Origin: Flavobacteriaceae bacterium
GTDB taxonomy: Bacteria; Bacteroidota; Bacteroidia; Flavobacteriales; Flavobacteriaceae
Length of the DNA: 39,899 nucleotides
Direction: 5' to 3'
NCBI GenBank assembly: GCA_002707745.1
Contig: PANU01000026.1
Span: 1-39,899, forward strand
A program made the translations under genes and the position numbers. Positions 18,036-20,954 of this stretch are shown here, piece by piece; the stretch's first letter is position 1; each line of letters begins with the position of its first letter. A model generated the notes under the pieces. That model saw nothing but the letters and a program-made list of their open reading frames with translations. It did no database searches and had not been told where the DNA came from.

Positions 18036-18041
18036 TGTGTG

Positions 18042-19331
18042 ATGCGCGTAACCAAAAAAAAATCTGCAAATCTTACTCCGCTGTTAAAGCAACAATTGTT
18101 ATTGTGGGCAAGCCAGTTTGAAGAAGTAGCCTGGCTGGACAGCAATGCCTATCTTCAAAATCACGGCTCCTATCAGGCGCTTCTTGCCGTAGATGCCTTT
18201 ACAGCGATAAAAACAGATTATTACAATGGTTTTAAAAAACTGGACGAATACCAGCAACTTACCAGGGACTGGTTGTTTGGCTATTTAAGTTATGACCTTA
18301 AAAACGATGTAGAGCGGCTTACTTCCAATAACTTTGATGGTCTTGGTTTTCCAGACTTGTATTTTTTTCAACCCAAAAAAATCTTTCTTTTTTCTGAAAC
18401 TGAAGTTGAAATGCACTACCTGGCTATGGTAGATGATGAGCTGGAGACCGACTGGGAGGAAATTTTACAAACTGAAATTTTACAAACCGAAACCACTTCT
18501 GAAGCACTAAAAATAAAGCTCCGCACTTCAAAAGATAGCTATGCCGAAAAAGTTGCGCATATGCTTCAACATATAGAACGCGGGGATATTTATGAAGCTA
18601 ATTTTTGTCAGGAATTTTATGCCGAAAACACTACTATCAACCCAGAGCAGGTTTTTTTTTCGTTAAATAATATTTCTAAACCTCCGTTTGCCACCTATTT
18701 AAAACTGGATTCCCACTATGTACTTTCAGCTTCTCCGGAGCGGTATCTCAAAAAGACGGGAAGCACCCTAATTTCACAACCTATTAAAGGAACCGCTAAA
18801 CGATTACAAAATGCGGTAAGCGATAAGGAAATGGCAAGTGCATTAGCCAATGATCCCAAAGAGCGTAGCGAGAATATTATGATTACAGATTTGGTGCGTA
18901 ACGACCTCTCACGTATTGCCAGAAAAGGTACAGTTACTGTTGAGGAGCTTTGCGCTATCTATACTTTTGAGCAGGTACACCAAATGATTTCAACCATTTC
19001 CTGTGAAGCTAAACCCGAATTTTCACCTGTGCAACTTCTTAAAAATACCTATCCCATGGGGAGCATGACGGGGGCTCCTAAAATAAGCGCTATGAAAATT
19101 ATAGAACAACTGGAAGATGCCAAAAGAGGAGTGTATAGTGGTACCATAGGCTATTTTGCCCCTAATGACGATTTCGATTTTAATGTGGTTATTCGAAGTA
19201 TTTTGTATAATAAGGCAAATCAGTATGTGAGTTTTTCGGTGGGAGGTGCTATAACTTCCAAGTCTACCATAGAAGCCGAATATGAGGAATGCCTACTAAA
19301 AGCCAAAGCTATGCGAAGCGTTTTGGAATAA
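18042..19331 (+). CDS. pabB: Aminodeoxychorismate synthase component I
   Basis: The product is about 429 aa from the ATG at 18042 (MRVTKKKSANL). The track starts one codon earlier at a GTG. Chorismate-binding enzyme motifs: ASPERYLKKTG, SQPIKGTAKR, MITDLVRNDLSRIA, GSMTGAPKISAMKIIEQLE and GVYSGTIGYFAPNDDFDFNV. The Lys in PIKGT is the mark of PabB (TrpE has Ala there), pointing to 4-aminobenzoate synthesis for folate rather than tryptophan. The glutamine amidotransferase partner (pabA/trpG) is not adjacent. A 15-bp tandem duplication at 18459-18488 adds EILQT in frame in a variable loop. Confidence 0.92.
   Translation: MRVTKKKSANLTPLLKQQLLLWASQFEEVAWLDSNAYLQNHGSYQALLAVDAFTAIKTDYYNGFKKLDEYQQLTRDWLFGYLSYDLKNDVERLTSNNFDGLGFPDLYFFQPKKIFLFSETEVEMHYLAMVDDELETDWEEILQTEILQTETTSEALKIKLRTSKDSYAEKVAHMLQHIERGDIYEANFCQEFYAENTTINPEQVFFSLNNISKPPFATYLKLDSHYVLSASPERYLKKTGSTLISQPIKGTAKRLQNAVSDKEMASALANDPKERSENIMITDLVRNDLSRIARKGTVTVEELCAIYTFEQVHQMISTISCEAKPEFSPVQLLKNTYPMGSMTGAPKISAMKIIEQLEDAKRGVYSGTIGYFAPNDDFDFNVVIRSILYNKANQYVSFSVGGAITSKSTIEAEYEECLLKAKAMRSVLE
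18459..18488 (+). repeat. 15-bp in-frame tandem duplication inside pabB
   Basis: GAAATTTTACAAACT is followed at once by GAAATTTTACAAACC (14 of 15 identical). It encodes EILQT-EILQT in an acidic, poorly conserved region between the N-terminal and chorismate-binding parts. The length, a multiple of three, preserves the frame. Confidence 0.85.
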
Positions 19332-19436
19332 CCTTAGCGTCAGGACTTTTGTACAGCTTAAAAAGCTGATATTTTAAAAAAAAACATCAAATTAATACGG
19401 TATGTTTTGTCATTTCATTAGTTGTATATTTTAATG

Positions 19437-19500
19437 CATAAACGGTGTTTATGTACTTTAGACAACATAAATATACTTTATGTATTCTTGACAACATAAA
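19437..19500 (+). promoter_or_regulatory. Operator array upstream of satD (five inverted half-sites)
   Basis: Two near-identical elements TTTATGT-N10-ACATAAA occupy 19448-19471 and 19477-19500, 29 bp apart. Both right halves read GACAACATAAAT. A further half-site CATAAAC (19437-19443) faces GTTTATG (19447-19453) across GGT. The array ends 5 bp before the -7 box TATATTTG (19506-19513), so a bound protein would cover the -33 region. The most likely ligand is the HTH of SatD itself (autoregulation); this is inference. Confidence 0.6.
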
Positions 19501-19505
19501 TTTTA

Positions 19506-19513
19506 TATATTTG
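19506..19513 (+). promoter_or_regulatory. -7 element (TATATTTG) of the satD operon
   Basis: TATATTTG is an exact TAnnTTTG match, 14 nt before the GTG start of satD. The only TTG nearby (19488-19490) is 15 nt upstream, which is short for a -33 box. A weak core promoter dominated by the operator array would fit. Confidence 0.5.
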
Positions 19514-19527
19514 TAAAAAATAGTATA

Positions 19528-20214
19528 GTGAATTATTCGGTAATTTCGGGAGATATTATATCCTCAACCAGTTTAGGTAGTGGGGATAAGCAAATTCTAG
19601 AAGCACATCTACAAACGTTACTAGAAACGCTGAAAGAGCATTTTAACAGTTATGGACGGGTGCTTAAAGGCGACTATCTGGAGTGTGTAATCCCTAACGC
19701 AGCAGAAGCGCTACGGGTATGCCTGGCCATAAAGAGTTACGTAAAAACCATTCCTATTTCAGAAAAATCGCTTAAAAGAGATAAAAACAGAGCTAAATTA
19801 TTTAAAGAATACGGAGTACGTCTGGCTATTGGCTATGGCACGTTAGACAGGTACGATCCTGCAAAAGGAGTGATAGACGGGGAGGCTATTTATTATTCTG
19901 GGCGTAAAATTAGTAGTAAATCTACCCACGACAAAGAGCGGGTGGTAATTAAAAACACCATGTTTTTTATGTCTAAAGACGAAGTCATGAATAAAAAATG
20001 GACCGCTATACTAGAATTATTAGATGTGCTTTTTACTAAAGCTACCCAGCGTCAGTGTGAGGTTGTGTATTTAAAACTACTGGGAAATAATGAGGACGCT
20101 ATTGCCAAAAAACTGGGCATAGACCAGTCTGTTGTAAATCGTCACTCTACAAACATTGGATGGAACGCCATAGAAACGGCCGTTTCGTATTTTAACGAGT
20201 CTCTTACCGAGTAA
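19528..20214 (+). CDS. SatD-family protein with cyclase-like domain and C-terminal HTH
   Basis: The 228-aa protein starts with GTG; the -7 box is just upstream and no better start exists. The first 150 residues read like a small class III nucleotidyl cyclase fold: SVISGDIISST with D9, VLKGDYLECVIP with D49, GVRLAIGYG near 96-104, GEAIYYSGRKI near 118-128. Both potential metal-binding Asp positions are kept, but the usual catalytic Asn before the conserved Arg is Tyr, so activity is doubtful. Residues 172-215 (TQRQCEVVYLKLLGNNEDAI, then AKKLGIDQSVVNRH) look like a sigma-region-4/HTH. The name comes from the streptococcal sat operon. The DUF3307 gene follows after 2 nt. Probably a sensor-regulator. 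Confidence 0.8.
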   Translation: MNYSVISGDIISSTSLGSGDKQILEAHLQTLLETLKEHFNSYGRVLKGDYLECVIPNAAEALRVCLAIKSYVKTIPISEKSLKRDKNRAKLFKEYGVRLAIGYGTLDRYDPAKGVIDGEAIYYSGRKISSKSTHDKERVVIKNTMFFMSKDEVMNKKWTAILELLDVLFTKATQRQCEVVYLKLLGNNEDAIAKKLGIDQSVVNRHSTNIGWNAIETAVSYFNESLTE

Positions 20215-20216
20215 TT

Positions 20217-20954
20217 ATGGAAATAAACACTTTTTTAGCATTACAATTCCTGGCACACGTATTGGCCGATTATTTTTTGCAGACACAAAAAATGGCCCGT
20301 GAAAAAAATGACCTCGGATTTAAGAGCAGGTTATTACCATGGCATGTTTTTATGGTTTTTGTATGTTCCTGGGTGCTATCCTTCCAGATCGAGTTTTTTG
20401 TAGGGGCTGGTATTATTGCAATACTTCACTATGTTATAGACGGATTTAAGGCTCAAGCCAATAGACATTCCAAGTTATGGAAATATGCTTTTTTTATAGA
20501 TCAGGTCTTACATATACTGGTTCTTGTGGTGGTGTCGCTATTTTTTAAAATATATCACGGCTTACAACCACTTTTTGAAATCCCTGTTTCTGCAACCGTT
20601 ATAGCTATAGTTACAGCGTATTTAATTTGTTTAAGACCTGCCAACATTTTTATAAAAGAAGTATTTAGATCTTCACAAATAGATGTAGCCATTGCCGAGC
20701 AGGAAAAAGCTGAAATACTGGATGGCACAGACGAACTCCCAAATGCAGGGAAACTTATTGGTATTCTGGAACGTATTTTAGCACTTACTTTTATACTCAT
20801 TGGACAATACCACGCTGTTGGATTTTTAATTGCCGCCAAGTCTATACTAAGATACAAAGACACAGACACCCTTAAAACAGAATACGTCCTCATTGGAACC
20901 ATGCTAAGCTTTGGTATTGCCGTAGTTTTAGGTATTTTAGCGGGAGCTATTTAA
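20217..20954 (+). CDS. DUF3307 membrane protein, partner of SatD
   Basis: The 245-aa membrane protein has about six TM segments. The family signature is at the N-terminus: LALQFLAHVLADYFLQTQKM with a following lysine-rich loop, then LHYVIDGFKAQANRH near 75-90. His and Asp residues placed within or beside the first helices (H14, D17) suggest a metal or ion site. The ATG lies 2 nt after the satD stop, and satD/DUF3307 pairs recur in Bacteroidota, so the two probably work together. Molecular function is unknown. tilS follows after 5 nt. Confidence 0.85.
   Translation: MEINTFLALQFLAHVLADYFLQTQKMAREKNDLGFKSRLLPWHVFMVFVCSWVLSFQIEFFVGAGIIAILHYVIDGFKAQANRHSKLWKYAFFIDQVLHILVLVVVSLFFKIYHGLQPLFEIPVSATVIAIVTAYLICLRPANIFIKEVFRSSQIDVAIAEQEKAEILDGTDELPNAGKLIGILERILALTFILIGQYHAVGFLIAAKSILRYKDTDTLKTEYVLIGTMLSFGIAVVLGILAGAI

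Follow-up and report, generated by a model that had tools for sequence, protein, structure and literature searches.

The satD-like gene of a flavobacterial contig (the window, i.e. the whole stretch of 39,899 nucleotides that was analysed) is preceded by an array of three 24-bp inverted repeats with a 29-bp period, which ends directly upstream of the -7 box. On the basis of sequence comparisons we hold with high confidence that this array serves the satD-DUF3307 operon as a dedicated operator, with SatD as its cognate and most likely self-repressing binder. The features of the locus are as follows.

18039 to 19331, + strand: gene for a chorismate-binding enzyme of the pabB/anthranilate synthase I type, the upstream neighbour, outside the system
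19419 to 19442: operator unit 1 (distal), TAGTTGTA-N8-TGCATAAA, left arm decayed, in 29-bp register with units 2 and 3
19448 to 19471: operator unit 2, TTTATGTA-N8-AACATAAA, one of the genome's only two exact copies
19477 to 19500: operator unit 3 (promoter-proximal), TTTATGTA-N8-AACATAAA, covering the -33 region
19506 to 19513, + strand: -7 box TATATTTG, fitting the Bacteroidota sigma-A consensus TAnnTTTG
19528 to 20214, + strand: satD-like gene with a GTG start, 228 aa, cyclase-fold domain plus C-terminal helix-turn-helix (HTH)
19528 to 19977, + strand: class III cyclase-fold domain, about residues 1-150 (AF2/Foldseek), with invariant Asp9 and Asp49
20125 to 20157, + strand: recognition helix, residues 200-210 (QSVVNRHSTNI), a helix of the AF2 model that covaries with half-site bases
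20217 to 20954, + strand: gene for a DUF3307 (PF11750) membrane protein, starting 2 nt after the satD stop codon, same operon

A preliminary description of this region had reported a TTTATGT-N10-ACATAAA pair repeated with a 29-bp period, an additional half-site and a gap of 5 bp to the -7 box, and all of these were found: two perfect copies are located at 19448-19471 and 19477-19500 (29 bp from start to start), the first TTTATG has a partner in (G)CATAAA at 19436-19442, and TATATTTG at 19506-19513 lies 5 bp 3' of the array. The five half-sites counted there are real, but as units they form three 24-bp dyads, the outermost arm of which (TAGTTGTA, 19419-19426) has decayed. The array is read as three units (19419-19500) with one decayed arm because the arrays of homologues hold only whole 24-bp units. 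Unit 1 has the sequence TAGTTGTA-tattttaa-TGCATAAA and is joined to unit 2 by the linker cggtg, unit 2 (TTTATGTA-ctttagac-AACATAAA) is followed by tatac, and unit 3 (TTTATGTA-ttcttgac-AACATAAA) is connected to TATATTTG, the -7 box, by tttta.

For the comparison, SatD-like genes were gathered from relatives, from named genomes and by a profile search of 400 genomes of the family (80 positive) and 396 of the phylum (39 positive), and further loci were then added by coordinates, giving a set of 143 distinct SatD-family proteins; locus L065, a murG-like false match, was discarded. Direct 7-mer repeats in 58 regions upstream of SatD homologues, taken together, peaked at exactly 29 bp (1363 versus 48.6 in shuffled sequences) and a second time at 58 bp (489 versus 37.6). 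A search for the best array, which allowed any arm sequence, dyad lengths of 16-30 and periods of 22-40, returned a period of 28 or 29 bp upstream of 134 of the 143 genes, compared with 9.6% of 429 random segments taken from the same loci as controls. Strong arrays (score of at least 26) were present in 88 of the 143 upstream regions and in none of the 429 controls, and every one of the 88 has a 28- or 29-bp period. Three units are the rule (87 of 115 arrays) and four are found in 23 of 115. The arrays begin and end with whole 24-bp units, there is no odd half-site at the ends, and the next would-be half-site at either end matches little or no better than background; on the same ground a 19-bp dyad across the gap (ACATAAA-N5-TTTATGT) was rejected as the unit. 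A check before satD orthologues had been proposed, and an array of this kind precedes nearly all of them, even homologues of about 24% identity in Gammaproteobacteria. An array was not detected before about six of the 143 homologues (L009, L026, L103, L104, L108, L157). The genes without a detectable array include those of a Maribacter MAG (L009/L046, upstream of 1501/3001) and of an Aequorivita MAG (L026, upstream of 525), where the upstream region is G+C-rich and may be a misassembly. The family is split by period into members with 28 bp (e.g. L111, L119 and L146) and members with 29 bp (L011, L109), the former being mostly proteins of the MTSxITGDI type.

The geometry of the arrays is constant, and the letters of the half-sites differ among lineages. 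In the genus of the window the half-site is TTTATGTA/TTTATGCA, in Aequorivita TTTATTAG or TTTATAAG, in Echinicola TTTATAGG, in Lutibacter-like genomes TTTAAAGG and among distant homologues AATATCGG. Plasmid-borne homologues of Vibrio lentus and Salinivibrio (about 24% identity) and a further homologue in Pseudoalteromonas are preceded by the dyads TTAGCC/GGCTAA, TTGCT/GGCTAAA and GTAAC/GTTAC, the period being exactly 28 bp, and the next gene is again DUF3307 (by annotation, and in Pseudoalteromonas by its sequence). Five distant members (L154, L106, L107, L017 and L117) have very different dyads in 28-bp arrays (GTTGATTT-type, GGAATA, GCATAT), which would be useful for extending the recognition code described below. 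Pairs of satD and DUF3307 are located on plasmids at L162, L163, L164, L165 and L166 (Salinivibrio, Vibrio lentus, Pseudoalteromonas and Segatella copri), and the Vibrio lentus plasmid p1, which carries such a pair, is conjugative. No match was found in the phages or viral contigs searched for a phage origin.

The gene that comes next after satD, in the same orientation, is DUF3307 at 141 of 141 loci. The -7 box of Bacteroidota sigma-A promoters has the consensus TAnnTTTG (PMC9723704), to which TATATTTG conforms. Transcription is predicted to start near 19520, so that the leader ahead of the satD GTG codon would be only about 8 nt long. Among 115 arrays, 45 are followed by a TAnnTTTG box at a distance of 3-7 bp, 25 overlap such a box with their last half-site, and 44 have no such box recognised beside them. 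Autorepression is the likeliest consequence of SatD binding, since the array extends over the -33 region or into the -7 box. Arrays of several units that cover the core promoter are typical of repression. Given binding, we therefore consider autorepression highly probable, although the preference for repression over activation, like the role of a nucleotide as signal, is inferred. An improbable alternative is that SatD binds the array but activates its own operon, e.g. from a class II site beside sigma: in the window and in many relatives only 3-7 bp separate the array from the -7 box, a place at which a bound protein could replace a weak -33 element, and the HTH of SatD resembles LuxR and sigma region 4 domains. 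An activator is difficult to reconcile with the 25 arrays whose last half-site overlaps the -7 box itself and with the multi-unit layout over the core promoter. In addition, satD of Streptococcus pyogenes, an accessory gene, is essential in strains that have it (PMC11323703). This agrees better with a protein that represses a harmful neighbour than with an activator, but we regard it as a lead only.

The preliminary description had called for a genome-wide motif scan, and in the genome to which the window belongs (2.76 Mb, about 82% complete) exact TTTATGTN10ACATAAA occurs only twice, both times before satD, while sites with up to two mismatches are at background level (42 versus 73 for a reversed control pattern). 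In four genomes of the same genus the pattern is found at satD and in at most two other places, and in the two Aequorivita genomes tested the local pattern is confined to the three sites before satD. A wider regulon was rejected, as no second array was present in the genomes tested (the window's own, the four of the same genus and the two of Aequorivita), in which the operator lies beside its own gene and essentially nowhere else. A one-mismatch copy of the 24-mer elsewhere in the genome, at G000:C15:2552-2575, is probably coding sequence, and slightly changed single sites occur in two relatives.

The main evidence that SatD would read the ladder is a rank test of covariation carried out in two non-overlapping sets of sequences. 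For each position of the half-site, the column that best explains the base was sought among about 200 variable columns of the SatD alignment, with similar sequences down-weighted; the other columns serve as the control because all columns have common ancestry. Among the orthologues, column 208 ranks first for half-site position 5, column 199 first and 205 second for position 6, column 202 first for position 7, and column 205 first for position 8. The distant set, which does not overlap with the orthologues, again has column 199 first for position 6, and 205 is first there for positions 7 and 8. The top columns (199, 202, 205 and 208) are located in or directly beside the recognition helix (residues 200-210) of the AF2 model. 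Residue 205, which is an arginine in SatD of the window (codon at 20140-20142), follows a simple code: Asp or Glu accompanies C in 10 of 10 cases, Arg accompanies G in 7 of 8 and Gln accompanies A or T in 71 of 71, these counts taking in sequences as well as independent events. With a looser cut and a tree built without the HTH, Asp or Glu goes with C in 13 of 13. No independent pair changes in the wrong direction, the pairs on well-supported branches being too few for formal significance. Exceptions are 3 of 10 Arg-205 proteins that lack G6, and Ser or Gly at this residue accompanies A, C or T. The change to Arg205 and G6 seen in the window probably arose once or twice. Regulator and operator covary as in a single-target autoregulator, and these data strongly suggest that SatD binds its own promoter. 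The autoregulation that had been proposed as the simplest model is thus supported by the presence of the array before nearly every orthologue and by the specific covariation of half-site bases with the recognition helix. If the code for residue 205 is true, a SatD variant with Arg205 replaced by Gln would prefer CTTATAAA arrays over ACATAAA.

It is very unlikely that the array is the site of another, possibly global, regulator and that its link to satD is merely positional. Dense inverted repeats before genes can serve other regulators, but such a regulator would leave unexplained why the bases covary specifically with the SatD recognition helix in two non-overlapping sets, why the tested genomes have the array at the satD promoter and essentially nowhere else, and why the geometry is conserved while the letters change. 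The notion that the repeats act as hairpins in RNA or DNA (a terminator, an attenuator or a recombination site) and not as protein-bound operators can be dismissed, for although perfect dyads can fold in this manner and the array sits after the pabB stop codon, the units are A+T-rich, the array is outside the satD transcript from the TATATTTG promoter because it is located upstream of the -7 box, and neither the 28-29-bp period nor the residue-specific base changes would be accounted for.

For SatD of the window an AF2 model with a pLDDT of 91.3 was obtained. When this model was used in a Foldseek search, the top 50 PDB matches consisted entirely of class III nucleotidyl cyclases, among them a cyclic UMP synthase (best E value 2e-4, TM about 0.4-0.5), and the N-terminal domain shows the class III fold. 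Asp9 and Asp49 are invariant in 143 of 143 homologues and, judged from their position in the fold, presumably are the metal-binding aspartates, so that binding of a nucleotide by SatD can be inferred. Arg126, the putative transition-state arginine, is present in 59 of 59 orthologues and in 38 of 84 distant members; enzymatic activity is doubtful in the latter because this residue is not conserved there. The C-terminal HTH predicted from the sequence is present in the model. The name SatD stands by family continuity through homologues, although the protein of the window itself has no match to PF16264 at E values up to 1 and none in NCBIfam and is a divergent member. PF16264 matches with E values up to 1 were obtained for 15 of 40 close relatives. 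A profile of the close orthologues retrieved homologues that exceed the PF16264 cut-off of 29 bits over nearly their full length (L109, 35.3; L137, 31.0; L103, 37.8) and that have the same gene order with DUF3307.

These properties suggest the following mechanism of self-repression. One SatD dimer would bind each 24-bp dyad, the helices of the C-terminal HTH reading the arms, and usually three dimers would sit side by side at the fixed distance of 28-29 bp. Neighbouring dimers presumably touch each other, because this spacing is kept while the letters drift, and cooperative binding by a multimer is likely because the spacing is strictly conserved. The description of the operators as phased does not hold in the sense of one helix face: 28-29 bp correspond to 2.67-2.76 turns (2.76 for the 29 bp of the window), and therefore successive units of the window point to different sides of the double helix, around which the dimers would wind. 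The proximal dimer would cover the -33 region, or elsewhere the -7 box, and in this way block sigma and repress the satD operon. The likely sensor is the N-terminal domain with its class III cyclase fold; binding or turnover of a nucleotide would release or tighten the array and thereby control the amount of the DUF3307 membrane protein.

The SatD family (PF16264) is that of the streptococcal sat operon, and homologues of the window protein align with it nearly over their full length and above the cut-off. The literature found links streptococcal satD only to acid tolerance and essentiality; in a search of mainly non-subscription literature, which is no proof of absence, neither a published operator for SatD, nor a part for it in DNA binding, nor a report on the regulation of DUF3307 was found. 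In the LacI family, local autoregulation with a readable code of residues and bases is known (PMC2978694). As there, local autoregulation would allow operator letters and recognition residues to change together, so that the code can be read by comparison alone, but SatD has another fold and another sensor domain, its ladder comprises about three dyads with a rigid period of 28-29 bp, and its only evident target is its own promoter. SatD shares with class III cyclases the fold (all of its top 50 PDB matches) and both invariant metal-binding Asp positions; it differs from them as a small single domain fused to an HTH, and many of its distant members have lost the putative transition-state Arg. 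The two-gene operon with the regulator first, several operator copies, patchy distribution and occasional location on plasmids is reminiscent of toxin-antitoxin systems with an autorepressing antitoxin, but DUF3307 is not a known toxin and inspection by eye shows pabB still beside the satD locus in related genera. DUF3307 had no match in the defence library; the library match obtained, a weak HTH similarity only, was rejected.

The proposed mechanism is concrete and comes with a ready test for a barely studied and widespread two-gene family. The many half-site types, the one helix-position rule and the unchanging 28-29-bp architecture together constitute a natural experiment in the joint change of repressor and operator, and the results suggest that a small transcription regulator can use a cyclase fold as its sensor. 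More tentatively, and as a possibility that we rate below even, SatD and DUF3307 may be a self-contained module found across phyla, in which a nucleotide-sensing, cyclase-derived repressor forms a short helical filament on the ladder and silences a potentially harmful DUF3307 effector, as a toxin-antitoxin or stress module would. A testable prediction is that satD would be essential only in strains that carry it because it silences its neighbour.
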